Below, one piece after another: positions 3,419 through 23,917 of a DNA stretch of 64,000 nt (position 1 is its first letter; each line of letters starts with the position of its first letter). The stretch lies in assembly GCF_018448785.1 (NCBI RefSeq), contig NZ_JAHCLU010000006.1:124001-188000 (forward strand). Reading direction: 5' to 3'. A model generated the notes under the pieces. It made no database searches. It saw nothing but the letters and a program-made list of their open reading frames with translations, and was not told the DNA's origin. Made by a program: the position numbers and the translations under genes. This stretch comes from Halomonas jincaotanensis. GTDB lineage: Bacteria > Pseudomonadota > Gammaproteobacteria > Pseudomonadales > Halomonadaceae.

Positions 3419-3455
3419 ATAGTTAATGACTATCGATAAAGTAGGATCGGTTGAT
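3419..3455 (+). promoter_or_regulatory. OxyR-type operator upstream of ahpC
   Basis: Four tetranucleotides occur at exact seven-base spacing: ATAG (3419-3422), CTAT (3430-3433), GTAG (3441-3444) and TGAT (3452-3455). The OxyR consensus is ATAG-N7-CTAT-N7-ATAG-N7-CTAT, so 13 of the 16 specified bases match and the spacing is perfect. It lies 77 bases before the ahpC start. Function is inferred from the motif and the peroxiredoxin downstream. Confidence 0.7.
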
Positions 3456-3531
3456 TTTAGACTTTCGGCTAATGCCGTTACGCTGCCAGGACATTTTTAC
3501 ACTCTGTCAATCGCAAGGAGCGACACCACCA

Positions 3532-4095
3532 ATGTCTCTGATCAATACCGAAGTTAAACCGTTCAGTGCTACGGCTTACCATAATGGCGAGTTCATTGAT
3601 GTCACCGAGGATAGCCTGAAGGGCAATTGGAACATCTTCTTCTTCTATCCGGCCGACTTCACTTTCGTTTGCCCTACCGAGCTGGGTGACCTCGCCGACA
3701 AGTACGAGGAATTCAAGCAGCTGGGCGTCGAAATCTATAGCGTTTCCACCGATACGCACTTCACCCACAAGGCGTGGCACGACAGCTCCGAGACTATCGG
3801 CAAGTTGCAGTATCCGATGCTCGCCGATCCGACCCACACCCTCTCGCGCAACTTCGAGGTGCTGATCGAGTCCGATGGCGTCGCCGAGCGCGGCACCTTC
3901 GTGGTCGATCCCGACGGCAAGATCCAGATTGTCGAGCTCAATGCCGGCAATATCGGCCGCAATGCCGAGGAGCTGTTGCGCAAGGTCAAGGCCGCTCAGT
4001 ACGTGCGGGCCAACCCGAACGAAGTCTGCCCGGCCAAGTGGGAAGAAGGCGAAGATACCCTCGCACCGTCCCTCGATCTGGTCGGCAAGATCTAA
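3532..4095 (+). CDS. ahpC: Alkyl hydroperoxide reductase peroxiredoxin subunit
   Basis: A typical 2-Cys peroxiredoxin of 187 residues that reduces hydrogen peroxide, organic peroxides and peroxynitrite in the cytoplasm. The peroxidatic cysteine is in FTFVCPTE and the resolving cysteine in NEVCPAKW. I chose ATG 3532 because AAGGAG sits about eight bases upstream and the protein then begins [11 protein letters not shown] as in the family; an earlier in-frame start at 3451 lies inside the OxyR-like operator and is not credible. It is followed by its reductase gene ahpF and is probably induced by OxyR. Confidence 0.97.
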
Positions 4096-4110: not shown

Positions 4111-4180
4111 GACGAAGCCCGTTCTCGCTTCGTCCGTTCACGCCCGGGTCCGGTGTCAATGACGCCCGTCCGGGTTTTTT
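4111..4180 (+). terminator. Hairpins between ahpC and ahpF (attenuator-like)
   Basis: A perfect eight-base stem GACGAAGC/GCTTCGTC (4111-4118 and 4127-4134, eight-base loop) is followed by a weaker CCCGG/CCGGG pairing (4143-4147 and 4170-4174) that leads directly into six T residues (4175-4180). Together these could end most ahpC transcripts and leave less for ahpF, which would fit the excess of peroxiredoxin over reductase needed in cells. The second stem is short, so termination strength is uncertain. Confidence 0.4.
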
Positions 4181-4275
4181 CCCAGGAAACACGATACGCC
4201 ATGTCCCGCATGGTGGGCGCGCGATGGCGCCATGTTTCCGATTCTGTTACCCCGACATCAAGGACCGCCGCTGTC

Positions 4276-5832
4276 ATGTTGGACGACAATCTGAAAAGCC
4301 AGCTTAGCGCCTATCTGAACAAAGTCACTCAGCCGTTCGAGATCGTCGCGTCCCTCAATGACGACGCCAAGTCTCAGGAACTCCACCGACTGCTGACCGA
4401 CATCGTCGGGCTGACCGACAAGATCACTCTGACCACCGACGGTGACGATACTCGCAGGCCCTCCTTTACCCTGAAGCGCTCAGGGCAAGAAACCGGCATC
4501 GTCTTCGCCGGCATCCCCATGGGGCACGAGTTCACCTCGCTAGTGCTGGCCCTGCTGCAGGTCGGTGGCCATCCGCCCAAGGCTTCTCAAGAAGTCATCG
4601 AGCAGATCAAGGGTCTCGAGGGTGAGCTGCATTTCGAGACCTATTACTCGCTTTCCTGCCAGAACTGCCCCGATGTGGTCCAGGCGCTGAACCTGATGGC
4701 GATCCTCAACTCGGGCGTCCACCACGTGGCCATCGATGGCGCACTCTTCAAGGACGAGGTCGAGACGCGCGAGGTGATGTCGGTGCCGAGCATCTACCTC
4801 AACGGCGAGCCCTTCGATCAGGGTCGCATGGGCCTTGAGCAGATCCTCGCCAAGGTCGATACCGGCCTCGCCGAGCGTGAGGCCGCCAAGCTCAGCGAGA
4901 AACCGGTCTTCGACACCCTGATGATCGGGGGCGGCCCGGCCGGCGCCGCGGCGGCGATCTATGCCGCGCGCAAGGGCATCCGCACCGGTGTGGCTGCCGA
5001 GCGTTTCGGCGGCCAGGTACTCGATACCATGTCCATCGAGAACCTCATCTCCGTGCCCCATACCGAAGGGCCCAAGCTCGCCGCGGCGCTGGAGGAGCAC
5101 GTCAAGGAGTACGAGGTCGATATCATGAACCTGCAGCGCGCGGTGGCGCTGGCACCAGCAGCTGAAGCCGGCGGCGAGCACGAGGTTCACTTCGCGTCCG
5201 GCGCCAGCCTCAAGGCCAGGACCCTGGTGCTGGCGACCGGCGCCCGTTGGCGCGAGATAGGGGTGCCCGGTGAGGCCGAGTATCGCAACAAGGGCGTGGC
5301 CTACTGCCCGCACTGCGACGGCCCGCTGTTCAAGGGTAAGCGTGTGGCGGTGATCGGCGGCGGCAACTCCGGCGTCGAGGCGGCCATCGATCTGGCCGGC
5401 CTGGTGGCTAAGGTGACCCTTATCGAGTTCATGGACGAGCTGCGCGCCGATGCGGTGCTGCAGAAGAAGCTCGCCAGCCTGCCCAACGTCGAGGTCATCA
5501 AGGGCGCACGCACTACCGAGGTCAACGGCGATGGCAAGCGCGTCAACGGTCTGACCTACGAAGAACGCGCTAGTGGTGAGATCCGCAAGGTCGAGCTGGA
5601 GGGCGTGTTCGTGCAGATCGGCCTGGTACCCAACACCGAGTGGCTAAAGGGTTCGCCCATCGAGCTGTCGCCGCATGGCGAGATCATTACCGACGAGCGA
5701 GGCATGACCTCGGTGCCCGGTATTTTCGCCGCCGGCGATGTCACTACCGTGCCCTACAAGCAGATCGTCATCGCCCTGGGCGAAGGGTCGCGTGCGGCGC
5801 TGGGCGCCTTCGACCATTTGATCCGTAGCTGA
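4276..5832 (+). CDS. ahpF: Alkyl hydroperoxide reductase flavoprotein subunit
   Basis: A 518-residue NADH-dependent disulfide reductase that regenerates AhpC. The N-terminal tandem thioredoxin-fold domain carries the SCQNC centre (C128, C131). The FAD motif [11 protein letters not shown] is at 217-227, the thioredoxin-reductase-like redox pair YCPHC has C344 and C347, and a second dinucleotide motif [11 protein letters not shown] follows for NADH. Length matches the usual 520 or so residues when ATG 4276 is used; the open frame extends to 4153 but that extension has no family similarity. It lies 180 bases after ahpC with hairpins between. Confidence 0.96.
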
Positions 5833-6058: not shown

Positions 6059-8089
6059 ATGCCTACCGCGTCACCAAGCATCCGTGGCCCGGTGAGCGCG
6101 ACCCAGCCCAGCGGCTGTGTGCTGATTCTCGATGCCGATGCCTCGCGGGTCCTGCAGACCAGTGCCAACCTGCCGGAGATACTGGGTGTATCAGTCGATG
6201 CGGCGCTGGCAGAAGGGCCGGGGCGCTTGCTGGGTCATGACTTGGCTCGACGCCTGCGCCGCGAGTTGCAGGGCCGCCAGCGCCTCCCTGGCGCCCTGTC
6301 GATCAAGCGTCGGGTGGCTGGCGGGTTGCGCAGCCTGCAGCTCGATGCTCGACGCAGCGGTGATCGGGTTCTGGTTGAAATCGAACCGTTGATCCGGCAA
6401 GGCAAGCGGCGGTTGTTGGCGACGCTTAATGCCTGGCTGATGCGCCTGGCCGCCGCCGATCATCCCGACGAACTCCTCGATTCGCTAGTGGCCGGGGTGG
6501 CCGATCTCACTGGCCATGACCGAGTGTTGGTGTGCGGCTTTGACGCAAACGGCCACGGGGCGGTGGTCGCCGAAAGATGTGCCCCTGGCGTGCCATCGTT
6601 CATTGGCATGCGCTTTCCCGCCAGTGATTTCCCCCCGCACATGCGCGAACGTTCCGATGTCAGGGCAGCTGCGGTGCCACTGATACCGGCCCTCGATCCT
6701 TGCCGCCAGACGCGCGCCGATCTGTCGACGAGCTTGCTGCGCAGTATCTCGCCCGAGCAGCAGCGCTACCTGACGGGTATGGGTGTGGCGTCGCTGTTGT
6801 CGATCGGCATGCACGGCGATGGCGGTCTCTGGGGTCTGGTGCTGTGCCACGGTATGGCGCCGCATGCCTTGTCGCCAGCAGTGCGCGATGCAGCCCTCGG
6901 TCTGGTGCAGATGGCCACTCAACGGCTGTTTCTGCTGCGCGCGCGCTCCGAGGCGCGATTTCTGCAGCGCGTTCAGGAGAGCCGCGCGTTGCTGGACGCC
7001 GAGCTGTCGGTCCCGGATACATTGCTCCGGCGTCATGGCGACAATTGGCTGGAGCTATTTAGTGCCCAAGGGCTGGTGCTGGTGATGCCTGAAGGCAATG
7101 GGCAGCTTGGCCAGGTTCCCCGAACTGCGAGCCTGGCGTTGCTGGTTGAGCGTCTCGAGACCACTCATCACCGTCCCGGCCCCTGGGTGAGCCAGGCGTT
7201 GGGCCACGAGCCCCTTACCTCCGATCTGGCGCTTGATGGCGCCTGCGGCCTGCTGGCCGTTGCCTTTTCGCTGGGGGAGTGGCGGCGCGGCTGGCTGCTG
7301 CTCTTTCGCCCCGAGCAGCGCGAGACCTATGCCTGGGTGGGGTTGCCTGACAGCGGGCTTGAAGCCGCCTGCCCGGGCGAAGCCCTTCCTGACGAACAAA
7401 ACTTGCTGGGGCGGCTGTTCAGCCAGTGGCAGGAGGAAATCAGCGGCCATAGCGCCGCCTGGGAGCGAATCGAGCGTCTGGCAGCCCGAGATCTCGCCGA
7501 GCAACTTGCGGTCGTGGCCTCGGCCCAGGAGATCAATCGGCTCTACTGCAGCCTGCGTCAGGAGCAGCAGGCGCTGGCCGAGGCTAACCGCCGGCTCGAG
7601 CACCTGGCCCACCACGACGCCCTGACACGAGTATGGAACCGCTATCGCATCGAGCAGGCCATGGATGCCGAGCTTACCGCTGCCGAGCGCTGTAGCCGGC
7701 CCATGGCGGTATTGCTGTTCGATATCGATCACTTCAAACGCATTAATGACGACCATGACCATGAGATGGGTGACCGCGTGCTGACCATGCTGGCTCGTGA
7801 GGTGGAATCGACCTTGCGCGGCTGCGATTACCTGGGCCGCTGGGGCGGCGAGGAGTTTGTGGTGCTGGCGACCAGCAGCGATCTCGACGCCGGCCTGGGC
7901 TTGGCCGAGCGCCTCAAGCAGCGGATCGGCGCTATGGCGATTCCCGGCCTGCCGTGCCGGATCACTGCCAGCTTTGGCGTGGCTGCCTGGCGCCGCGACG
8001 ACACCCGCAAGAGCCTGCTCTCCCGCGCCGATGACGCCATGTATCGCGCCAAGGAGGCGGGCCGCGACCGCCTCGAAGCGCAGGGGTAG
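6059..8089 (+). CDS. Degenerate phytochrome-like diguanylate cyclase (PAS-GAF-PHY-GGDEF)
   Basis: A 676-residue cytoplasmic protein with the phytochrome sensory module followed by a diguanylate cyclase domain that would make cyclic di-GMP. GAF contains FPASDFP (186-192; canonical PASDIP), and GGEEF is at 596-600 with an RGCD inhibitory site at 587-590, so the output domain looks intact. The photosensory core looks damaged: there is no N-terminal cysteine before the PAS domain, the pocket histidine of SPxH is Q234 (SPEQQRY), and the PHY tongue PRxSF is LGRLF (about 449-453). It therefore probably does not bind biliverdin covalently and may sense something else. It is a paralogue of the intact phytochrome at 10940-13015. 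Confidence 0.85.
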   Translation: MPTASPSIRGPVSATQPSGCVLILDADASRVLQTSANLPEILGVSVDAALAEGPGRLLGHDLARRLRRELQGRQRLPGALSIKRRVAGGLRSLQLDARRSGDRVLVEIEPLIRQGKRRLLATLNAWLMRLAAADHPDELLDSLVAGVADLTGHDRVLVCGFDANGHGAVVAERCAPGVPSFIGMRFPASDFPPHMRERSDVRAAAVPLIPALDPCRQTRADLSTSLLRSISPEQQRYLTGMGVASLLSIGMHGDGGLWGLVLCHGMAPHALSPAVRDAALGLVQMATQRLFLLRARSEARFLQRVQESRALLDAELSVPDTLLRRHGDNWLELFSAQGLVLVMPEGNGQLGQVPRTASLALLVERLETTHHRPGPWVSQALGHEPLTSDLALDGACGLLAVAFSLGEWRRGWLLLFRPEQRETYAWVGLPDSGLEAACPGEALPDEQNLLGRLFSQWQEEISGHSAAWERIERLAARDLAEQLAVVASAQEINRLYCSLRQEQQALAEANRRLEHLAHHDALTRVWNRYRIEQAMDAELTAAERCSRPMAVLLFDIDHFKRINDDHDHEMGDRVLTMLAREVESTLRGCDYLGRWGGEEFVVLATSSDLDAGLGLAERLKQRIGAMAIPGLPCRITASFGVAAWRRDDTRKSLLSRADDAMYRAKEAGRDRLEAQG

Positions 8090-8225: not shown

Positions 8226-10910
8226 ATGGTGACAGCCGAAGAGGCCTTTCGACAGCTGGCCGACGGTCTCGGGCGCAGCGGCGCTGACGATTTTTTCGAG
8301 ACCCTGGTCCAGCGTCTGGCCACACTGCTGCGGGTCGGCCACGTGATGATCGCCGAAGTCATGCCGGGCGAGCATGCCCAGACGCTCGCGGTGTGGTCCG
8401 GCGATAAACTGCAGGCGAACTTTCGTTATGCGCTGGCCGGCAGCCCCTGCGAACGAGTGGTGGGCCACGAGGTCTGCTTCTTTCCCGCCAATGTCGGCAA
8501 GCTATTTCCCGGCGACAGCCTGCTTCAGACCATGGCGATCGAAAGCTATCTGGGCATGCCGTTGTATGCGAGTGATGGGTCTTCGCCGGGGTGGCTCGCG
8601 TTGCTCCACGACCACTCGATGCAGCTCGACCCCCTGGCCCACGAAGTGCTGCGTATCGCTGCCGCCCAAGCCGGGGCCGAGCTGGGGCGGCGCCATGCCG
8701 AACGCGCGCTGACGCTCAGCGAGGCCAGTGCCCGCGAGAGCGAGCGCTGGCTCGACGCTCTGATGCACCAGCTTCCCGGCATGGTCTACCGTTGTTGCAA
8801 CGACCGTGACTGGACCATGCAGTTCGTCAGCCATGGCGCGCTCGCGCTGACCGGCTACCGCCCCGAGGCACTGCTTGGCAACCAGGCGACGAGTTTCGCC
8901 AGGCTGATTCATCCCGGCGACCGTGACCGCGTCTTCGACGAGGTGCAGGACGCCGTGGCGCGCCATGTGGCCTTTCGCGTGATCTATCGCCTCGCCTCGG
9001 CGGACGGCGCGATGCGCTGGGTATGGGAGCAGGGGCAGGCCGTCTATGGTGGGGAGGGCGAAGTGGAGTGGGTTGAGGGCTTCATCACCGACATCACCGA
9101 GCAGCACGCGTCGCAGCGTATCCAGCAGGCGGTGATGCAGGTTGCGACCACCGTCTCCACCCGGCTCGGCGACGACTATTTCCACCAGCTGGTGCGCAAC
9201 CTGGTCGAGATCCTCGAGGCCGATGCCGGCTATGTGGCGACGCTAGACGCGATTGATGAATCCGAGACAACTTTGACCACTCAGAGCTTGGTGGTCGACG
9301 GTCAACGGCGCGATAACGTCACCTATCTGCGGGAGGGCTCGAAGTGTTCGCAGGTGCTCGCCGATCAGGAGTGCCTGGAGGCCGCCGGTGAGGCTGTTAC
9401 GTTTTCCTGTGACGCGCCCGACCGGCTACCGGCCCAGGCCTGGATTGGCCGGCGGCTCGACAACGCCAAGGGTCTCCCCATCGGCGTGATGATGGTGCTG
9501 TATCGCCGCCCGCTGGAAGATGACAACTTTCCCCTTTCGGTGTTGCGCATTCTCGCCACCGGTGCCGCTGCCGAGCTGGAGCGCCGCCGCGATCATCAAC
9601 GCATGCAGCAGCTCGCCTATCGCGATTTGACCACCGGCCTGCCCAACCGCGTCAGTTTCATGGAGGTGTTGGCCGAATGGCGGGCGCTTGCCGAGAGGCG
9701 CCAGCGCCCGCTGGCAATGCTATGTCTCGACGTGCGCCGTTTCAAAGAGATCAACGACACTCACGGCCACCAGGTCGGCGACCAGCTGTTGGCGATGGTA
9801 GGCCGGCGTTTTCAGGCAGTGCTCGCCACCGGCGAGTTTCTCGCCTGCCTGGCCGGCGATGAGTTCGCGCTGCTGCTTGCCGATGCCGACGAGGCGACAA
9901 TAGAGGACACGCTCCGGCGCGTGCCGGCAGCCCTCGCCAGGCCCATTGCGCTGGGGCATCGCAGCTTCACGCTCGAGGTCAGTGTCGGCGTCGCCCAATA
10001 TCCGCGGGATGCCCTGACGCCCGATGATCTCTTCACCGCCGCGAGCATTGCGCTCTTTCATGCCAAGCAGCACGCCAAGCAGAGCGGCAGCGGCAGCAGC
10101 CATTTCGATGATGCCATGGCGCGTGAGCTTCACCATCGTCAGCGGATGACCGAGCGCTTCCTGGCCGCACTGAATGGCGATGGCCTCGAGCTCAATTACC
10201 AGCCACAGTTCGATCTGGCTACCGGCGAGCTGATCGGCGCCGAGGCGCTGTGCCGCTGGTATGACCCCGAGTGGGGCTGGGTCAGCCCCGGCGAGTTCAT
10301 TCCACTGGCCGAGGAGCGCGGGCTGATACGCCCGCTCGGCGACTGGGTGCTGCAAGAGGCTTGCCGCCAACGAGTAACCTGGCGTCGCGCCGGGCTGCGC
10401 CTGCCAGGTCGGTTGTCGGTCAATGTCTCGGCACAGCAGTTCGACGACCCAGAGCTCGCCGAGCACATCGTTACGCTGATAAAGGATACCGAGGCCGCCT
10501 CGATTGCCCTGGAGATCACCGAGAGCGACTTCATGCGCGACCCCGAGCAGGCCGTGGAGATCACCCGCGCCCTGCGCCAGGCCGGCTTTGCGTTGTCCAT
10601 CGACGATTTCGGCACCGGCTATTCGTCGCTGGCCTACCTGCGCCGCTTCGCCGCCGATGCGCTGAAGATCGACATCTCCTTCGTGCGCGACATGCTCACT
10701 AGCCATCACGACCGCGCCATCGTCGACACCATTATCGCCATGGCCCGCGCTCTCGGGCTCAAGACCGTGGCCGAAGGCGTGGAAACCCGCGAGCAGGCCG
10801 AGGCGCTGGCCGAGATGGGCTGCGACCAGGCCCAGGGCTATTACTTCGGCCGGCCGGTCACGGGCGAGGCGTTTCTCGAGCAGTGGGGTAGCGCCATGCG
10901 GCAGGACTGA
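8226..10910 (+). CDS. GAF-PAS-GAF-GGDEF-EAL cyclic di-GMP protein
   Basis: An 894-residue soluble multi-sensor protein. Domains in order: GAF (about 20-155), PAS (about 175-292), a second GAF (about 300-450), GGDEF (about 462-610) and EAL (about 640-885). The cyclase motif is AGDEF (543-547), a variant that may be weak or inactive. The phosphodiesterase side looks complete: AEAL (672-675), NVSAQQF, EITES, DDFGTGYSS, LKID and AEGVETREQA are all present. The balance of evidence favours breakdown of cyclic di-GMP under control of the sensor domains. It follows the phytochrome-like gene by 136 bases and converges on bphP at its end. Confidence 0.87.
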   Translation: MVTAEEAFRQLADGLGRSGADDFFETLVQRLATLLRVGHVMIAEVMPGEHAQTLAVWSGDKLQANFRYALAGSPCERVVGHEVCFFPANVGKLFPGDSLLQTMAIESYLGMPLYASDGSSPGWLALLHDHSMQLDPLAHEVLRIAAAQAGAELGRRHAERALTLSEASARESERWLDALMHQLPGMVYRCCNDRDWTMQFVSHGALALTGYRPEALLGNQATSFARLIHPGDRDRVFDEVQDAVARHVAFRVIYRLASADGAMRWVWEQGQAVYGGEGEVEWVEGFITDITEQHASQRIQQAVMQVATTVSTRLGDDYFHQLVRNLVEILEADAGYVATLDAIDESETTLTTQSLVVDGQRRDNVTYLREGSKCSQVLADQECLEAAGEAVTFSCDAPDRLPAQAWIGRRLDNAKGLPIGVMMVLYRRPLEDDNFPLSVLRILATGAAAELERRRDHQRMQQLAYRDLTTGLPNRVSFMEVLAEWRALAERRQRPLAMLCLDVRRFKEINDTHGHQVGDQLLAMVGRRFQAVLATGEFLACLAGDEFALLLADADEATIEDTLRRVPAALARPIALGHRSFTLEVSVGVAQYPRDALTPDDLFTAASIALFHAKQHAKQSGSGSSHFDDAMARELHHRQRMTERFLAALNGDGLELNYQPQFDLATGELIGAEALCRWYDPEWGWVSPGEFIPLAEERGLIRPLGDWVLQEACRQRVTWRRAGLRLPGRLSVNVSAQQFDDPELAEHIVTLIKDTEAASIALEITESDFMRDPEQAVEITRALRQAGFALSIDDFGTGYSSLAYLRRFAADALKIDISFVRDMLTSHHDRAIVDTIIAMARALGLKTVAEGVETREQAEALAEMGCDQAQGYYFGRPVTGEAFLEQWGSAMRQD

Positions 10911-10939: not shown

Positions 10940-13015
10940 TCAACGCGGCCTTGATGCGGCCACTTGGTTGCGTCCGCCGTGCTTGGCGCGATACATCGCC
11001 TGATCGGCGCGTACGACCAATTGCTTGCGCGTGTCGCCGGGCTGCCAGCTGGCCACGCCGAGGCTGATGGTCACCTGGCCCAGCTCGTCGAACGCGAGGG
11101 CCTCAACGCACTGGCGCAAGCGCTCGGCCAGGCGGGTGCCACCTTCGAGGTCGGTGTGGCTCGCCAGTGCGATGAATTCCTCGCCGCCCCAGCGGCCCAG
11201 GGCGTCGCTGTCGCGCAGGCCGGCTTGCACGGCCCGGGTCAGTTCGACCAGCACGCGGTCGCCCGCCTCATGACCGTGGGTGTCGTTGAAGTGCTTGAAG
11301 TGGTCGATATCGAACAGCAACAGCGTGAAGGGCTGGGCATGGCGCTCGGCCGCATTCAAGGCGGCGTCGATGGCCTGTTCCATGCGGTAGCGGTTCCAGG
11401 CCCCGGTCAGGGCATCGCTGTAGGCCAGGGACTTAAGCTGGGCGTTGACTTGATTAAGGCGCCCATTGAGCTTGGCGATTTCGCGCCCGGAGACCAGCAC
11501 GGCGAGATCCTCGGCGAGATCGCCGGCGGCGCGGCGTTCGATCTCGCTCCAGCCGTGGCTGCGGCCCTTTATCTCTTCCTGCCATTGGCCGAAGGAGCGG
11601 CGCGGGGTCATGATCAGCTGGCCGTGGCGTTCCATGGGAATATCCTCGGGATTACCGGCCCAGCGGCGTGTCTCGCGCTGTTCGGTACGAAACAGCATCA
11701 GCCAGTGGGATTGCCGGGTATCGCTGGGCAGCGGGGCGGCGAGCAGCCCGCAAAGATCTCCCTGCTGCCACTCGGCGAGCGGCGTGTCGACAAGCCGCTG
11801 GCTATACCAGGGTGCGTCGTGCTGTTGGTGGCGGTTGAGCCACTCGGCCATGCCCAGCAGGTGAGTGGCGTCTGGCAGTCGCCCTACGCCACTCACCCGG
11901 CCATGCAGCACCAAGGCCACGCCGCTGGCGCGCAGCAAGTCGAGCCACTGTTGGCCATGGCGCTGCAGCATGGCTTCGGGGTCTTCCAACTGGCCGCGCT
12001 CGCCGGCCAGCAGGTCACGGCTGTCATGGACGTCGTGCAGTAAGCGTGCCTCGGCCCTGGCACGCAGCAGCATCATTCGGGGCAGGGTGATCTGCACCAG
12101 GGCGCGTGCGGCATCGCGCACGGCGGGTGAGAGCTCGCGTGGGCCGAAGCCATGGCAAGCGAGCAATCCCCAGAGCCGCCCTTCATCGTGCATGGCGATG
12201 GACAGCGAGGCGCTCACGCCCATGTTGGCGAGGTATTCCCGGTGGATCGGTGATACGGCGCGCAGCGAGCCCCGGGAAAGATCAAGGGGCGTTGCGTCCT
12301 GGGGGTCGCGGGCTGGCATCAGCGCCACGGGCGCTGCGGCGGCATCGGGGATGCTACGCACGCGGTTGATGTCATAAAGCCTTCGCACCTGGACGGGGAT
12401 GTCACTGGCCGGGAAGTGATGGCCGAGAAAGGCGCCGGCCTCGGCCACGCGGTGCTCCGCCACTACCTGGCCGTTCCACTGCTCATCGAAGCGATAGACC
12501 ATCACACGCTCGTAGCGGGTCAGCTGCTGTACGCCGCGCGTCAGCGCTTGCAGCAGTGCATCAAGGTCGTCGAGTTGGCTGACCTGAACCAGCCATTCAT
12601 TGACCGTGGCGAGCAGGCGTCGCTCGCCTGGCTGATTCAGCGGCTCGAGTTCCACCACGACCCTTGAGCCGCTGCGGTAGGCCACCACATGAAACCGCCG
12701 CATCCGCTCCTTGACCCGGCGCTGGGCCGTCAGGGCATTGGGCAGGCACTCCTGGTCGAGAAGAGCCTGGCGCAAGCGTGTCAGCAGCCGCTTGCCGATC
12801 AGGTCGCTGGGGTGTGCTTGCAGGGCCTCGGCCACGCTGACGCCGAGAAAAATTTCTATATTGGCGCTGACCTGGCGTACTTGACGCATTTCGCTGTCAA
12901 GGCTGATCAGGCAGCCCGCCGATTGAATGGCGCCGGGAATGTGTACCGGCTCGCGGGCGCAGGCGTCCAGGGCGGCGTCGATCTGCGCCCGAGAGTAGGG
13001 GATGGATTGGTTCAC
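10940..13015 (-). CDS. bphP: Bacteriophytochrome diguanylate cyclase
   Basis: A 691-residue red/far-red photoreceptor fused to a diguanylate cyclase. The biliverdin-binding cysteine is C19 in CAREPVHIPGAIQ, the GAF domain has FPASDIP (201-207), the pocket histidine is H258 in SPIHREY, and the PHY tongue has WAGNP (452-456) and PRRSFGQW (471-478). The output domain has GGEEF (610-614) and an RDSD inhibitory site (601-604). The start is GTG at 13015, overlapping the stop of bphO in GTGA, so the two are translationally coupled. Light would change cyclic di-GMP synthesis; which light state is active cannot be read from the sequence. Confidence 0.9.
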   Translation of the reverse strand: MNQSIPYSRAQIDAALDACAREPVHIPGAIQSAGCLISLDSEMRQVRQVSANIEIFLGVSVAEALQAHPSDLIGKRLLTRLRQALLDQECLPNALTAQRRVKERMRRFHVVAYRSGSRVVVELEPLNQPGERRLLATVNEWLVQVSQLDDLDALLQALTRGVQQLTRYERVMVYRFDEQWNGQVVAEHRVAEAGAFLGHHFPASDIPVQVRRLYDINRVRSIPDAAAAPVALMPARDPQDATPLDLSRGSLRAVSPIHREYLANMGVSASLSIAMHDEGRLWGLLACHGFGPRELSPAVRDAARALVQITLPRMMLLRARAEARLLHDVHDSRDLLAGERGQLEDPEAMLQRHGQQWLDLLRASGVALVLHGRVSGVGRLPDATHLLGMAEWLNRHQQHDAPWYSQRLVDTPLAEWQQGDLCGLLAAPLPSDTRQSHWLMLFRTEQRETRRWAGNPEDIPMERHGQLIMTPRRSFGQWQEEIKGRSHGWSEIERRAAGDLAEDLAVLVSGREIAKLNGRLNQVNAQLKSLAYSDALTGAWNRYRMEQAIDAALNAAERHAQPFTLLLFDIDHFKHFNDTHGHEAGDRVLVELTRAVQAGLRDSDALGRWGGEEFIALASHTDLEGGTRLAERLRQCVEALAFDELGQVTISLGVASWQPGDTRKQLVVRADQAMYRAKHGGRNQVAASRPR

Positions 13016-13674
13016 TTGGCGCCCTCGAGGCCGACAAGCGGTCGGCCGAGGTGGTCTTTGCGGCTCAGAATGGCCGGGCTGGTGTCCAGCGAGTGCTGAA
13101 ACAGCGCGAAGGCTGCCCTGGCGCCGAGTGCCGCTTCATCAGCGCTTGCCACCGGGCCACGAGGCTCAGCAACGGCGCGTTCAGAAAAGAGACGCTCGGC
13201 AAAGGTAATGAAGCTCGGCCAGTGCGTGGCGCCGTGGGCCTCGGCGAAGAAGCGCAGCGGAACCGTCGGGCCTAACGAGGCGCGCACATGCTTGGCGATG
13301 ACGCGGGCGCCCAGGCGCGAGCCTTCCAGCACATACAGCAGGCCAAGCAAGGTCTCGAGACGAGGAACTGCCAGGGGGGCAAACGCCCCATCGAACGGCT
13401 TGCCGCCCAGGCGTTCAAGATCGTCACGCAGCGCCGGGGCGCGTTCGTCGAGACGATAGCCCTCGCCTGCTGGCAGGACGACAACCCGCGATTCGAGGCC
13501 TCGGCGCACCGCATCTTCCAGGCTCGACTGGGCGCCATGCAGGCCCACCAGGGCGTCTACATAGCTTTCCGGGTCGAGGTCGCTCTTCAGCAAGCGACTC
13601 AGTCTGGGGTGACGGTCGAGGCGGTGGTGGTCATGGTGCGTGGCCTCGCGCAATCGTGCGAGCAGTGAACACAA
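13012..13674 (-). CDS. bphO: Biliverdin-producing heme oxygenase of the phytochrome operon
   Basis: A 220-residue protein of the bacterial heme oxygenase family, which opens heme to biliverdin, iron and CO and thereby supplies the phytochrome chromophore. The proximal histidine is in LREATHHDHHRLD near residues 13-17, and the distal helix shows YVLEGSRLGARVI. It overlaps bphP by four bases, the classic pairing. It is the first gene of its unit, or may be read from the kaiBC operon 148 bases upstream; that gap has no terminator I can recognise. Confidence 0.88.
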   Translation of the reverse strand: MCSLLARLREATHHDHHRLDRHPRLSRLLKSDLDPESYVDALVGLHGAQSSLEDAVRRGLESRVVVLPAGEGYRLDERAPALRDDLERLGGKPFDGAFAPLAVPRLETLLGLLYVLEGSRLGARVIAKHVRASLGPTVPLRFFAEAHGATHWPSFITFAERLFSERAVAEPRGPVASADEAALGARAAFALFQHSLDTSPAILSRKDHLGRPLVGLEGAK

Positions 13675-13798
13675 GGTGTTGGCAACCCTCAGGTAAAGGT
13701 GAAAGGTAAGATGTCGCTTGTACCATGTGTTGTCATAGGCTGGAAGGTGAGGTCTCGGGTTACGGCATCATCAAGGTGGCCTGGCGGGGGATTGGCGC

Positions 13799-13824
13799 TG
13801 CCATTGCCATCTGCCATTGCTATC
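13799..13824. repeat. Tandem 13-base repeat at the end of kaiB
   Basis: TGCCATTGCCATC (13799-13811) is followed directly by TGCCATTGCTATC (13812-13824). It reaches into the last codons of the KaiB-like gene. The rest of the 148-base gap between kaiB and bphO shows no gene and no clear terminator. Confidence 0.7.
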
Positions 13825-14125
13825 AGAGCGCCGAGAGAAAGTTCTTCAGGCTGTATTCATCGGAGAGGTCTCCATAGAGCACTCGGCGCTTTCCCGACGC
13901 ATCGATGTGCATCAGGGCGGGTGTGGCGAAGATGCCGAAGCTGATGGCCTCTTGCGGTTCACGCAGGAGGTCGATCTCGCGGGTTGGGGCGTCGTCGATA
14001 CTGTTGGCCTCGAGGGCGGCCGTCAGGTTGTGGTGGGCCCGCCGGGAGCGGGGCGCTTCACCGGTCACGAAGAGGATGAGAGTGGCATTGTGCTGGTGGT
14101 TGTCGTCGGCGAGTGCGCGGTTCAC
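13823..14125 (-). CDS. kaiB: KaiB-like protein
   Basis: A 100-residue protein that matches the whole KaiB fold: an N-terminal strand LILFVTGEAPRSRRA, then REIDLLREPQEA, FATPAL (66-71, LATPTL in cyanobacteria) and GDLSD (85-89, identical). In cyanobacteria KaiB is a fold-switching protein that binds phosphorylated KaiC. Here the start is GTG 14125, overlapping the kaiC stop in GTGA, so KaiC and KaiB should be made together. There is no kaiA in the window. Function as a clock, timer or stress module is not known; the KaiB identity itself is well supported. Confidence 0.87.
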   Translation of the reverse strand: MNRALADDNHQHNATLILFVTGEAPRSRRAHHNLTAALEANSIDDAPTREIDLLREPQEAISFGIFATPALMHIDASGKRRVLYGDLSDEYSLKNFLSAL

Positions 14126-15831
14126 TGGTCCTGCCCTCCCTGGCTGGGATTCCGGCGTCTCAGGATGCTGTCCTGATGGCGGTCCGCCCCGCGATCGGTT
14201 TGTGTCTGGTCGCGATGCTCGGTCACCAGTTCCTCCTGCAGGCGCTCAAGCTCTGTCTGGCCCTGCTGGATCAGAGTGCGGGTCCTTTCTATCTCCACTT
14301 CCAGTCGTTGCTGCTGGCGAACGCGCTCCTTGACCTGTCGCTGTCGCATGGCGGCTTCCTCGCTCTCCTTCTGGACGCGCGCCGTGCCCATCAAGACCTC
14401 GCTGCCGAAGGGGTAGACATCGGCGAGATCGACGCCTCGAGGGGAGAGAATCATCTCGCGGACCTGATTGGAGTGGGCCGTGCCCCTCGACTTGACCACC
14501 GACAGCGAGCGATTGCGCTCGCCGCCGTTGATCTGGTAGCGCAGCACGATCCAGGTATCCGCAAGGGTCGAGGCATGGCTCAGGCTGGATTCACCGAAGG
14601 GGTCATCGGCCTCGGACAGCGAGGTGAGCATGGTGGTGATGCCCCGGGTGCGTGTGACGGCGAGGAGATGCTCCAGGGCGAGGAAGGCGCTTTCGGCACC
14701 GGACGACTTGAGCAGGGCCGAGGCCGGGTCGATGACCAGGCATTCCGGCTGGAAATCATCGAGCAGGGCAAGCACGGCCATGTAATGCTCCTCCACCAGG
14801 CCATCCCAGCTTGCCCGGGCGACGACGCTCAACTGGCCACTGTCGATGGGCGACTGCAAGTCGATGCCCAGGGTGGCGACATTGCGTACGATCTGGCGGG
14901 CGAACTCATCGAAGCTCAGCAGTAGTGCTCGCTCGCCTCGCTGGGCGGCGGCGGCAACAAAGGCCGCCCCCAGTGTCGTCTTGGACGTCCCGGGCTGGCC
15001 GGAGATCAGAGTGGTCGAGCCACGATAGACACCACCCTCGAGTATCTTGTCGAGGCGCTCGATGCCGGTGCTGATACGTTGACCGGCGGCCGGCACCGAC
15101 GCGGCGACGAAGGGCTCGGCATAGGGAAGATGGATGCCGGCATCGTCGATCAGCATGGCAAGCTCATTGGGGTTGTGGCGAGTGCCCCGGTACTTGGCGA
15201 TGCGAAAGCGTCGGTTGAGTCGCTTGTCCACCAGGGTGCTCGACAGCACCAGGATGGTGTTCAGCATGAACTCGATGCCGGTGAGGTGATCCGGGTGGGG
15301 ACTGTCGTTGCCCGTGTGCTTGCCGGTCAGCAGCAGTGAATACCCCTTCTCGATGCTCCAGTCATTGAGCTGGGCGATCTGGTCGATGGCGCTCTGGCTG
15401 TCGGGTTGGCGACGCAGCAGCTGGTCGATCCCGTCGAGGATGATCCAGTTGCCTTCCACACGCCTGGCGCAGAGGTCCAGCACGGCGAGCAGTCCGTCGA
15501 TGTCGAAGGTCCCCGAGAATTCGGCTCCCTTCATCGACTGGCCGTCGATGATCTCGCAGCGTGACTCGCGCAGTCGCGGCCCCCAGCGGAAGGAATCGGT
15601 ATTGCGCAGGATCTGCTCGCGGGATTCCTCGAAGCTCATGAAGACCCCGCCCTCCCCCCGTGCCAGGACGCTGGCCAGTATCTGGAGGCCGATGATGGTC
15701 TTGCCGCACCCCGGCTCGCCGATCACCAGGGTCGCGCCCCCGGCCAGTAGCCCCCCGTGGGTGACCGTATCCAGGTGATGAATACCGGTGGCTCGCTTGA
15801 CGAGTCCGTGCCCCGCTGTGGTGTCGTTCAT
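14122..15831 (-). CDS. kaiC: KaiC-like double-domain ATPase/autokinase
   Basis: A 569-residue protein with two RecA/KaiC domains. CI has Walker A GEPGCGKT (38-45) and the catalytic pair FEES (E68, E69). CII has GQPGTSKT (278-285), a DE rather than EE pair (FDEF), and SHASTLAD, in which S421-T422 align with the autophosphorylated Ser-Thr pair of cyanobacterial KaiC (SHISTITD). Instead of the KaiA-binding tail it ends in a charged coiled coil (about 485-540). I chose ATG 15831 because GGAG lies five bases before it; ATG 15879 overlaps the upstream stop in ATGA and would add 16 residues. It is the middle gene of the EAL-kaiC-kaiB operon. Confidence 0.88.
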   Translation of the reverse strand: MNDTTAGHGLVKRATGIHHLDTVTHGGLLAGGATLVIGEPGCGKTIIGLQILASVLARGEGGVFMSFEESREQILRNTDSFRWGPRLRESRCEIIDGQSMKGAEFSGTFDIDGLLAVLDLCARRVEGNWIILDGIDQLLRRQPDSQSAIDQIAQLNDWSIEKGYSLLLTGKHTGNDSPHPDHLTGIEFMLNTILVLSSTLVDKRLNRRFRIAKYRGTRHNPNELAMLIDDAGIHLPYAEPFVAASVPAAGQRISTGIERLDKILEGGVYRGSTTLISGQPGTSKTTLGAAFVAAAAQRGERALLLSFDEFARQIVRNVATLGIDLQSPIDSGQLSVVARASWDGLVEEHYMAVLALLDDFQPECLVIDPASALLKSSGAESAFLALEHLLAVTRTRGITTMLTSLSEADDPFGESSLSHASTLADTWIVLRYQINGGERNRSLSVVKSRGTAHSNQVREMILSPRGVDLADVYPFGSEVLMGTARVQKESEEAAMRQRQVKERVRQQQRLEVEIERTRTLIQQGQTELERLQEELVTEHRDQTQTDRGADRHQDSILRRRNPSQGGQDQ

Positions 15832-15875
15832 CAGGTCTCCAAACTGCCAATCTTGAAACCGCAAGGGTCCTTGCT

Positions 15876-18143
15876 TCATCGTGCGTCGTCTTGTGTCATC
15901 CTCGCTGAGGGGAGTGGCACCAGGGGTAGACGGGAGTGTTTCGCCAGCAACCAGCGGAAGTCCTCTACTTCCAGCGGCATGCTGTAATAGTACCCTTGGC
16001 CGATACGGCATCCCAGTTCGAGCAGGACATCACGCACGGCGGTATTCTCTACCCCCTCCGCCACGGTGTCGGCCCCGAGCACTTGGCTGATGCCCAGGAT
16101 CATCGACACGATATTGCGGTTGAAGGGCTTGTCGAGGATTCCCCGCACGAACCCCATGTCGATCTTGATCTCGTCGAAGGGATATTGCTGGAGGTAGAGC
16201 AGTGACGAATAGCCGGTGCCAAAATCGTCGAGGGACAGCCTGACGCCAAGCGCATGCAGGTCATTGATCTGTCGGCGCAGCAACTCGGACTCCTCGCTGA
16301 ATACACTCTCGGTGATCTCCAGAGTGAGCGCGGCCGGGTCGATGGCATGGGTCTCGAGGGCTTCGCGCACCTTGTGGTTGAAGTCGCCTAGACGGAACTG
16401 GTCCACCGAGACGTTCACCGAGACCCGGACCAGGTCGAGGCCCGCATCCTGCCATTCGCGCAGATGGTGGCATGCCTGGAAGAGCACCCAGTCACCGATC
16501 GGGCCGATCAACTGGCTCTGCTCGGCGATGGGAATGAACTGGCCGGGCATCTGCATGCCGCGCTGCGGGTGCATCCAGCGGATCAACGCCTCGCAGCCGA
16601 TTACCTCGCCGCTGGCCAGGTTCACCTTGGGCTGGTAATGTAACTCGAACTGATCTTCCTCCAGGGCCCGGCGAAGGTCACGGGTCAGATCGAGGCGGTG
16701 CTGGGCGATCCGATCCATTTCCCGGTTGTAGCGATAGAATTTGCTGTTGTCGCGCAGGCGGGTCTCGTGCAGGGCGATCTCCACTTCGTGCAGCAGAGTT
16801 TCGGCGCTGCGCTCGTCCTCGCCGAGCAGGGTATAGCCCCCCCAGACCGAGATCTCGATGAGGATCTCTCCGATGCGAAACGGCCGCTGAAACATCTTGG
16901 CCAGTGAATCGAGACGCTCGGGATGGTCTCTGGCGTGGTCATCGGGCAGGAAGAGGATGAACTGGTCACCGCTGATACGGCCGATGAGAGCGTGGTCGCA
17001 GAGGTGATTTTCCAGGCGGCGCGCCAGCTTGATCAGCAGGCGGTCTCCGATGTTATAGCCATGGGCATCATTGACGTTGCGCATTTCCCTGATGTCCAGC
17101 AGGGCGATGATATCCTGCGGATTCCATCCGTACCGGCCGATGTGGCTCGAAAATGCCGCGCTGAAGCCCGGTCGATTGGCGAGGCCAGTCAGGGAATCCT
17201 GATAGGCCTGTCGCTTCAGCTCCTCTTCGGCCAGCTTGCGTTCGGTGATATCCACATGCATCACCACGGCCCCCGGGAAGCCCTCGGTTTCATGGCCAGG
17301 TGCCAGCCGGGTGGCCATCATACGAAACCAGCGTGGCTGGTCCGGGGAATGGCAGGGATACTCCAGGGCGAAGGTTTCCTGGTCGCCAGCCAGCACGGCC
17401 TGCAGGCCCTCGGCGGTCTGGAGAGCCTCCTCGGCGCAATCGCCGGTAGCGGCACGGCAGATCTCGAGGTAGTTGCTGCCAACGCCGAAGTTGGCGTCCC
17501 GGAAGTCATTGTTGGTCGCGAAGTGTCGCCACTGGTCGTTGACGTCGAGGATCCTGCCGTCGCCATCCAGCAGGGCGATGTGGGCGGGAAGTGAATTGAT
17601 CAGCGCCCGGCGGTCGGTCAGGGCGTCGGAGAGTGACTCGACCATGGCGGCCTGCTGGTCGAGCATCCGATTGAAGGTGCGCGCGAGGTCGGCGAACTCG
17701 TCCGACCCCGTGACCGGGACTCGAGTGTCTTGATCACCGGCTTCCACTCGCCGGGTGGCGTGGGAAAGCGCCCGCAGGGGACCGTTGATGCGTCGGAAGA
17801 TCACGCCGAAGGCGAGGATACAGAGGGCGCCGAAAAGCGCCGCGGCCACCCCGAACCCCATGGCGAGCCATCGGGTATCTCGGGCGATTCTCGCCTGGTG
17901 TTGATGCACTACCTCCTGAAGGGCCGTATCCAGGGTGGTGCCCAGGTCGGCCACCCGGCTCACGACCTGGCTGTCGCTGACCAAGGAGGAAGTGTCGATG
18001 CGGCCCTGAAGTGCCATCAAGGAGGCGATCTCGTCTTGCCTGTCCTGCATCGATGACAGGCTGTGGACACCCATGAATACCAGCATGGCAAGTCCCAGCA
18101 AGCAGCCAACGATGCTGACGAGCGACAGGCGAAGCAGCTTCAT
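15876..18143 (-). CDS. Membrane HAMP-PAS-GGDEF(degenerate)-EAL phosphodiesterase, first gene of the kai operon
   Basis: A 755-residue inner-membrane protein. It has transmembrane helices near residues 5-25 and 95-118 with a short periplasmic loop between, then HAMP (about 115-165), PAS (about 175-303), a GGDEF domain whose signature is SGDQF (391-395) and whose metal site is altered, and an EAL domain (EAL at 518-520, then NVSVDQF, EITES, DDFGTGYSS, AEGVEN). It should hydrolyse cyclic di-GMP rather than make it. ATG 18143 starts directly before the first membrane helix; the frame opens at 18230 but the extra 29 residues are polar and unlike a membrane protein start. Its stop overlaps the alternative kaiC start. 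Confidence 0.83.
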   Translation of the reverse strand: MKLLRLSLVSIVGCLLGLAMLVFMGVHSLSSMQDRQDEIASLMALQGRIDTSSLVSDSQVVSRVADLGTTLDTALQEVVHQHQARIARDTRWLAMGFGVAAALFGALCILAFGVIFRRINGPLRALSHATRRVEAGDQDTRVPVTGSDEFADLARTFNRMLDQQAAMVESLSDALTDRRALINSLPAHIALLDGDGRILDVNDQWRHFATNNDFRDANFGVGSNYLEICRAATGDCAEEALQTAEGLQAVLAGDQETFALEYPCHSPDQPRWFRMMATRLAPGHETEGFPGAVVMHVDITERKLAEEELKRQAYQDSLTGLANRPGFSAAFSSHIGRYGWNPQDIIALLDIREMRNVNDAHGYNIGDRLLIKLARRLENHLCDHALIGRISGDQFILFLPDDHARDHPERLDSLAKMFQRPFRIGEILIEISVWGGYTLLGEDERSAETLLHEVEIALHETRLRDNSKFYRYNREMDRIAQHRLDLTRDLRRALEEDQFELHYQPKVNLASGEVIGCEALIRWMHPQRGMQMPGQFIPIAEQSQLIGPIGDWVLFQACHHLREWQDAGLDLVRVSVNVSVDQFRLGDFNHKVREALETHAIDPAALTLEITESVFSEESELLRRQINDLHALGVRLSLDDFGTGYSSLLYLQQYPFDEIKIDMGFVRGILDKPFNRNIVSMILGISQVLGADTVAEGVENTAVRDVLLELGCRIGQGYYYSMPLEVEDFRWLLAKHSRLPLVPLPSARMTQDDAR

Positions 18144-23113: not shown

Positions 23114-23917
23114 ATGGATTATTGTGCAAGGGTCGTGGGCCACTGCGGCCGCTGTGAGGGCGATCTGCCCTTCGACTTCACCATGGCCTTTCAACCGATC
23201 GTGGATCTGGCCGAGGCCAGGGTAGTGAGCTATGAAGCGTTAGTGCGTGGAAGGCAGGGCGAATCGGCCTGGAGCATCATTTCCCAGGTGACCGACGAGA
23301 TGCTCTACCGCTTCGATCAGGCCTGCCGGGTGAAAGCCATCGAGCTTGCCAGCGAACTGGGCATGCGCGAGACATTGTCGATCAATTTTCTGCCCAATGC
23401 GGTCTATGAGCCCCAGGCGTGTATCCAGGCTACACTCGAAGTGTCTGAGCGCGTGGGTTGGCCCACCGACCGTATCGTGTTTGAAATCACCGAGACGGAA
23501 AAGGTCAGGGACCGTCGGCATCTGCGCAATATCATCAATGCCTACCATGCCATGGGATTCACCACGGCATTGGATGACTTCGGCAACGGCTATGCCAATC
23601 TGGATCTGCTGACCGACTTGATGCCGGATCGGCTCAAGATCGATCGCGAGCTGGTCATGGGCTGCGATACCGACTTTCGCCGGCAGGCGCTGGTGCGCGC
23701 TGTTAAAGGCCTCGCCGACGAGTTGAACATTGGGTTGATCGCTGAAGGGGTAGAAACCCACGAGGAAGCCATGTGGCTGGGTCGCTTGGGAATCAATCGT
23801 CAACAAGGTTTCTACTTTGCGCGGCCGGTTGTCGAGTCGCTGGGCGAGGATCTTCGTCCCCGATTGAAGGCATTACGCGAGGAGATGCGCTTCAGTATGG
23901 AGGCCGGCCTGCCATGA
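23114..23917 (+). CDS. Stand-alone EAL-domain phosphodiesterase
   Basis: A 267-residue cytoplasmic EAL protein that would hydrolyse cyclic di-GMP. The EAL signature is SYEALVRG (E41-L43) and the later elements INFLPNAV, FEITETE, LDDFGNGYANL, LKIDREL and AEGVETHEEA are present. The N-terminus carries three cysteines (C4, C11, C14) as CGRC, which could bind metal or sense redox. ATG 23114 was chosen because it begins the conserved domain and has AGGACAACGAACG before it; the longer open frame from 22736 lies inside the preceding gene. It follows that gene by 37 bases and is probably co-transcribed. Confidence 0.85.
   Translation: MDYCARVVGHCGRCEGDLPFDFTMAFQPIVDLAEARVVSYEALVRGRQGESAWSIISQVTDEMLYRFDQACRVKAIELASELGMRETLSINFLPNAVYEPQACIQATLEVSERVGWPTDRIVFEITETEKVRDRRHLRNIINAYHAMGFTTALDDFGNGYANLDLLTDLMPDRLKIDRELVMGCDTDFRRQALVRAVKGLADELNIGLIAEGVETHEEAMWLGRLGINRQQGFYFARPVVESLGEDLRPRLKALREEMRFSMEAGLP

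Follow-up and report, generated by a model that had tools for sequence, protein, structure and literature searches.

Described Kai systems

The closest described counterpart of the locus analyzed here is the KaiBC hourglass of R. sphaeroides (structures 8dba, 8fwi and 8fwj; PMC10076222), which shares with it the absence of KaiA, a double-domain KaiC with a coiled-coil tail and the adjacency of kaiC and kaiB. The R. sphaeroides KaiC autophosphorylates without KaiA, and its state is set by the ATP:ADP ratio; the coiled-coil tail makes a dodecamer, and KaiA-free exchange and phosphorylation are driven by the exposed A loop rather than by the coil itself (PMC10076222). This protein (KaiC-RS) has a Ser-Ser site and a CII Glu-Glu pair, belongs to the KaiC2 clade and has a histidine kinase as its operon partner (PMC5520375), whereas the Halomonas KaiC has a Ser-Thr site and a CII Asp-Glu pair, belongs to a sister clade and is partnered by an EAL phosphodiesterase. 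The KaiABC system of S. elongatus has in common with the Halomonas locus the KaiC fold, the Walker motifs, the Ser-Thr pair and KaiB; in contrast to S. elongatus, Halomonas lacks KaiA, carries an extra KaiC tail and, in a search of the genome, yielded no SasA-like kinase with a KaiB domain. Clock KaiC of cyanobacteria and the Halomonas KaiC fell into separate clades of a tree in which the clock references were two designed KaiC proteins (8zn5 and 8zn6) and no cyanobacterial KaiC3 sequence was included.

The pairing of kaiBC with GGDEF/EAL genes is itself known, because such clusters were reported in 2011. That study of Ramlibacter (PMC3164672) describes non-cyanobacterial kaiC-kaiB clusters, with ST or SS sites, that in most cases have a histidine kinase or a GGDEF/EAL gene behind them. 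The partner in those clusters lies downstream of kaiC or kaiB, whereas the EAL gene of the Halomonas clade lies upstream, is first and fixed in its position and encodes a membrane-bound protein with a dead GGDEF domain. New are the fixed cassette with EAL upstream, its occurrence in a halophile lineage and the finding that such pairings arose repeatedly and independently; the accessible portion of PMC3164672 mentions neither this clade nor the independent pairings. A literature search for KaiC together with Halomonas returned incidental mentions only.

Organization of the locus

The window is the whole 64-kb stretch of Halomonas DNA that was analyzed, drawn from a host genome of 4.13 Mb. A preliminary description had proposed that five genes of the window form a light-entrained or metabolic timer setting c-di-GMP levels. 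All five genes were present, with the coordinates claimed for them and on the minus strand (Table 1), in the order HAMP-PAS-GGDEF-EAL protein, KaiC, KaiB, heme oxygenase and phytochrome-GGDEF protein. The claimed GTGA overlap of kaiC and kaiB at 14122-14125 was confirmed, and the same 4-nt overlap was found in nearly all close relatives. Placement of bphO-bphP on the same strand after a 148-base gap (13675-13822) was likewise correct, and bphO and bphP themselves overlap by 4 nt. The overlap of the EAL gene and kaiC (15876/15879) did not hold up, probably owing to a wrong start for kaiC. This start, at 15879, gives a protein of 585 aa and was rejected on the basis of the conserved start and a Shine-Dalgarno-like GGAG: the ATG at 15831 is preceded by GGAG and matches the start of the relatives, ATGAACGACACC, whose KaiC begins at the same MNDT, which in most Halomonas genomes lies 25 to 87 nt beyond the stop codon of the EAL gene. 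kaiC, therefore, most likely starts at ATG 15831 instead of 15879, leaving a gap of 44 nt after the EAL gene.

Rfam families, such as c-di-GMP riboswitches, were not detected within the 64-kb window, and a scan for promoters and terminators performed no better than shuffles. A search for plasmid carriage of kaiC produced a sole plasmid match, a kaiC at 37%.

Table 1. Positions of genes and sequence features in the window
Feature	Coordinates	Strand	Evidence or remark
EAL phosphodiesterase, first gene of the kept trio	15876..18143	-	Pfam EAL 4.7e-72, GGDEF 1.6e-23, HAMP 2.1e-15, PAS_4 1.4e-5
kaiC	14122..15831	-	569 aa from ATG 15831, GGAG upstream; Pfam KaiC 3.6e-71
CI Walker A, GEPGCGKT	15697..15720	-	Read from sequence and alignments
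CII Walker A, GQPGTSKT	14977..15000	-	Read from sequence and alignments
Predicted phosphorylation pair, Ser-Thr	14566..14571	-	Corresponds to S431/T432; numbered S437/T438 in the 585-aa form
KaiC C-terminal helix/coiled-coil tail	14152..14388	-	Residues 498-576 of the 585-aa form; AlphaFold2, periodicity, homologue tails
kaiB, GTG start	13823..14125	-	Pfam KaiB 3.6e-8, 33.5 bits, cut-off 27
bphO heme oxygenase, TTG start, outside the kept cassette	13012..13674	-	Pfam heme oxygenase 1.2e-8
BphP-GGDEF, IsPadC-like red-light diguanylate cyclase, local neighbour	10940..13015	-	Cys19, PASDIP, PRRSF, RDSD I-site, GGEEF
Second phytochrome-like GGDEF protein without N-terminal bilin Cys motif, context	6059..8089	+	
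GAF-PAS-GGDEF-EAL protein, context	8226..10910	+	Domain search

Conservation of an EAL-KaiC-KaiB cassette

Conservation of the linkage was examined by a genome search. The order EAL>KaiC>KaiB was detected in 17/17 genomes that encode a KaiC of this lineage (identity of at least 50%), among the matches listed, while this genome alone showed a link to bphOP, so that the trio, and not the proposed five-gene order, is conserved. These genomes comprised 11 Halomonadaceae, two other gammaproteobacteria (G473 and G802) that came from an even draw of genomes over class and phylum, Thiohalocapsa halophila, Methylohalomonas lacus, an Ectothiorhodospiraceae MAG and the alphaproteobacterium Rhodovibrio sodomensis; in the last two, a contig end truncates the EAL gene. 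Named genomes were scanned with two peptide patterns (at least 80 loci). Judged by their names and known habitats, the named species of this lineage are halophiles.

Distribution within the Halomonadaceae was patchy, with this kaiC present in 12 of 275 genomes, one copy being broken, and the nearest kaiC, among the matches listed, being that of Halomonas urumqiensis. Each of the 11 intact copies was directly preceded by the EAL gene and followed by kaiB, with varied flanks. These observations indicated that the EAL-KaiC-KaiB linkage exceeds chance by far. Two hosts, the Halomonadaceae genome G239 and R. sodomensis, fit poorly with vertical descent alone, making horizontal transfer of the cassette likely. 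The broken copy (G159, L141) has a frameshift in kaiC and sits beside EAL and kaiB genes in a genome that is 76% complete.

The EAL protein

The designation "EAL protein" was accurate for the EAL domain but incomplete, as the architecture is TM-periplasmic-TM-HAMP-PAS-GGDEF-EAL with a degenerate GGDEF domain. The two hydrophobic segments flanking the periplasmic region are probably membrane-spanning, and the start, MKLLRLS, is kept among relatives. All of the EAL catalytic motifs (EALxRW, EITE, DDFGTG, KID, AEGVE and QGY) were present and were invariant or nearly so among orthologues, while SGDQF occupies the position of the GGDEF or GGEEF motif expected of a diguanylate cyclase. A degenerate GGDEF was found in 10 of the 11 Halomonadaceae copies of this partner, the exception being that of G239. 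As the catalytic EAL motifs are intact and SGDQF replaces GGDEF, the protein should act only as a degrader of c-di-GMP, without cyclase activity. A domain search detected no KaiB/SasA-like KaiC-binding domain in this protein. The protein of this strain differs from those of relatives by an in-frame absence of ∼79 aa of the periplasmic region.

KaiC and KaiB

Two PF06745 stretches, corresponding to two KaiC/RecA-like domains, were found in KaiC. Both Walker A loops and the Ser-Thr pair within SHASTLAD are kept, as had been described, and the pair (SHASTLADT) is invariant in the EAL-linked halophile KaiC clade, the KaiC2 clade having SS. The catalytic pair is FEE in CI and FDE in CII, where the first Glu is conservatively replaced, and this Asp-Glu in place of Glu-Glu may weaken the kinase. 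From these features, we infer that KaiC would be a double-domain ATPase/autokinase. The best PDB match by sequence was 8dba, the R. sphaeroides KaiC (E 9.5e-76), and the best Foldseek match was 8fwi (TM 0.77). A quick tree placed KaiC in a separate Ser-Thr clade (starred branch, support of 100), sister to the KaiC2 clade that holds 8dba; members of the former combine Ser-Thr with CII Asp-Glu or Asp-Ser, and those of the R. sphaeroides clade combine Ser-Ser with Glu-Glu. The root among the three KaiC clades is unsure because the outgroup, a second KaiC-like protein, has a very long branch. A C-terminal coiled-coil extension of ∼50 aa, as in KaiC2, is present here as the helix of residues 498 to 576, and tails occur in both clades. 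Assignment to KaiC2 was excluded by the tree placement and by a Ser-Thr rather than a Ser-Ser site.

The absence of kaiA was confirmed for the whole genome in a search whose control responded only in Synechococcus. A coiled-coil tail, also part of the earlier account, was supported by AlphaFold2, which modelled the tail as one helix, and by a hydrophobic periodicity of ∼3.5. This periodicity was matched by 134 of 5,000 shuffles for the family average and by 154 of 2,000 for the single KaiC sequence, indicative of a modest heptad pattern. Comparable tails were present in essentially all of the kaiB-linked KaiCs aligned. The suggestion that the coil replaces KaiA input is plausible but not new, as the work on the R. 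sphaeroides KaiBC hourglass already describes that picture (PMC10076222).

KaiB retains the FATPAL and GDLSD motifs noted previously, and its thioredoxin-like domain scored above the PF07689 cut-off (Table 1) but fell short of the equivalog cut-offs that NCBIfam sets for the clock protein. No other KaiB domain was found in the genome.

The neighbouring bphO-bphP genes

The gene described as a phytochrome does encode one, but this label omitted the output domain, as the protein is a complete BphP-GGDEF diguanylate cyclase with the bilin Cys, PASDIP, a PRxSF tongue and GGEEF. Its best solved match was IsPadC (5llw; E 3.1e-136), which aligned over the full length with the Cys and GGEEF kept, and it lies outside the cassette. 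In five relatives, bphP has the same neighbours on either side (one flank has homologues of 3451-4095 and 4153-5832, and the opposite flank a homologue of the EAL gene that ends at 23917), and kai is absent from the site; in two of these relatives (G053 and G059), kai is located on a different contig. As bphP is kept between the same neighbours without kai, the trio, a second phytochrome and several c-di-GMP genes have come together in this genome at what was originally a bphP site, and the presence of light-sensor genes beside kai is, by synteny, a local accident. Compared to the five genomes, the ancestral site (3451-23917) has gained the second phytochrome-GGDEF gene, two GGDEF-EAL genes and the kai trio.

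The five-gene reading, in which bphO-bphP would be cotranscribed with kai and entrain it, draws on the shared strand, on a 148-nt gap in which a terminator-like site was not found on that strand and on a cooccurrence of bphO and kai in the genus (5/8 versus 9/82; Fisher p = 0.002, with shared ancestry uncontrolled), which is a hint only of a light link. Set against this, kai and bphP lie on different contigs in the relatives that have both, bphP occupies its ancestral site and BphP was unmatched in 5 of the 12 kai-bearing genomes in a search of the family. A five-gene kai-bph unit was, hence, dismissed by synteny, light entrainment as a property of the operon was not supported and such a timer is very improbable; any entrainment through bphOP is, likewise, highly doubtful. 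Approximately 50 family genomes encode a protein that aligns to BphP only from about residue 20 to 30, which suggests that a Cys-less phytochrome cyclase is widespread in the family.

Predicted output of the cassette

The c-di-GMP half of the original proposal fared better, since a phosphodiesterase is fixed beside this KaiC lineage (17/17 genomes among the matches listed). A functional linkage of KaiBC to the phosphodiesterase is very likely on these genomic grounds, and, as the trio is kept in every close KaiC relative found, the Kai output is probably c-di-GMP. The functional unit would be the three-gene cassette of EAL phosphodiesterase, KaiC and KaiB. KaiC would serve as the ATPase/autokinase and, having its own coiled-coil tail, would need no KaiA; its state would follow the ATP:ADP ratio and possibly elapsed time, and KaiB would bind it in one phosphorylation or nucleotide state. 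The KaiC/KaiB state would then control the HAMP-PAS-EAL phosphodiesterase, lowering c-di-GMP at one phase or energy state and favouring motility over biofilm, with the bphO-bphP cyclase acting on the same messenger from outside the cassette. The analysis itself established the gene content, order and conservation, the catalytic motifs, the clade and the predicted fold and tail; the phosphorylation, KaiB binding, direction of control, phenotype and any timing are what we infer. The cassette is most likely a KaiA-less KaiBC ATP/phosphorylation switch on a membrane c-di-GMP phosphodiesterase, and possibly an hourglass; we lean slightly towards KaiBC state controlling the phosphodiesterase and, hence, c-di-GMP, while a true timer is rather doubtful. 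In favour of such control are, besides the linkage and the EAL motifs, the KaiA-free nature of the nearest solved KaiC and the effect of c-di-GMP on the S. elongatus clock; against it stand the CII Asp-Glu pair, the failure of the domain search to detect a KaiC-binding domain in the EAL protein, the ∼79 aa missing from its periplasmic region in this strain and the patchy distribution of the cassette.

That the genes lie together by chance, in a genome with many c-di-GMP genes, is scarcely credible: only 19 EAL matches occur across 4.1 Mb, although five of these are within the 64-kb window, and the order is fixed in all 17 genomes among the matches listed, across several families and two classes with differing flanks. 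Control could also run in the reverse direction, with the PAS/HAMP-EAL protein serving as an input on envelope or c-di-GMP state and KaiBC acting on unlinked targets. The sensor domains of the EAL protein, the first position of its gene in the operon, the pairing of KaiC with PAS histidine kinases in wider members of the Ser-Thr clade and the shifts in period and phase that c-di-GMP brings about in the S. elongatus clock (PMC13001216) are consistent with this direction. The kaiC clades have, however, both histidine kinases and EAL proteins as partners, which are signalling outputs, and a degenerate GGDEF with an intact EAL resembles an effector enzyme, so that reverse control is unlikely. A quite possible alternative is that KaiBC is a stress or energy adaptor without timing, as has been suggested for the KaiBC of Legionella, which sets c-di-GMP by ATP:ADP or by salt stress in halophiles. 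The named members of the lineage, among the matches listed, are all halophiles, and light input is not linked by conservation. A role in the stress response has also been reported for KaiC2 of Legionella (PMC5520375). Retention of the Ser-Thr pair, the coiled-coil tail and a single KaiB, as a phosphorylation timer would need, argues against an adaptor devoid of timing; this alternative overlaps with control of the phosphodiesterase by KaiBC, the preferred reading, which makes no commitment on timing.

For Kai roles and targets outside cyanobacteria, the conserved partner points to c-di-GMP as a specific output that can be measured, and Halomonas hosts that can be cultured are on hand for testing it.

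Other pairings of KaiC with EAL proteins

A second EAL-linked clade, with the order KaiC>KaiB>PAS/GAF-GGDEF-EAL, was found in Rhodoferax, Nitrotoga, other Burkholderiales, Nitrosomonadales and some Gammaproteobacteria, and the lineages around it have PAS histidine kinases as partners. On a tree of 77 sequences, the EAL label required two changes, versus a mean of 21 for shuffled labels, and the EAL domains from partners of the halophile clade formed one clade (starred, support of 100) apart from those of the second clade. A single origin of the EAL linkage was rejected, as starred KaiC branches force the two changes and the partner EALs of the two clades are ungrouped; the EAL enzyme class has, thus, also been taken on independently by other Kai lineages. 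Further EAL-linked cases were detected among KaiC2-like proteins (L085, L239, L242, L244 and L249). The broadest reading, that a distinct KaiA-free KaiBC lineage moved among halophilic proteobacteria as a fixed three-gene cassette, forming a phosphorylation timer that acts directly on a membrane c-di-GMP phosphodiesterase as its output, and that Kai gained such outputs several times independently, is put forward as a tentative and somewhat unlikely one. On that reading, a bacterial hourglass would act on the choice between motile and sessile life with neither transcription factors nor a SasA-type kinase in between.

The L244 locus (G488) has the order EAL>KaiC>KaiB with a KaiC just 33% identical to that of the window and is probably a further independent pairing. 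Threonine has been lost in a few KaiCs of the second EAL-linked clade: at L057, L058, L063 and L051, the second phosphorylation residue is Lys or Met (SK or SM) and CII has Asp-Ser, and yet the link to kaiB and, in contigs that extend far enough, to an EAL gene persists. At L030 (G112), KaiC-KaiB and a histidine kinase are divergently oriented; the N-terminal region of this kinase is similar to that of the Halomonas EAL protein (32% over 106 aa), as would fit a single sensor joined to different outputs. The genome of this strain also encodes a second, distant KaiC-like protein without KaiB (L031:9126-10583; G000:C6:14207-15556), whose gene overlaps a downstream GAF-GGDEF-EAL gene and has an EAL-only gene upstream; similar pairs of KaiC-like and GGDEF-EAL genes were present at L032, L034, L036 and L037.
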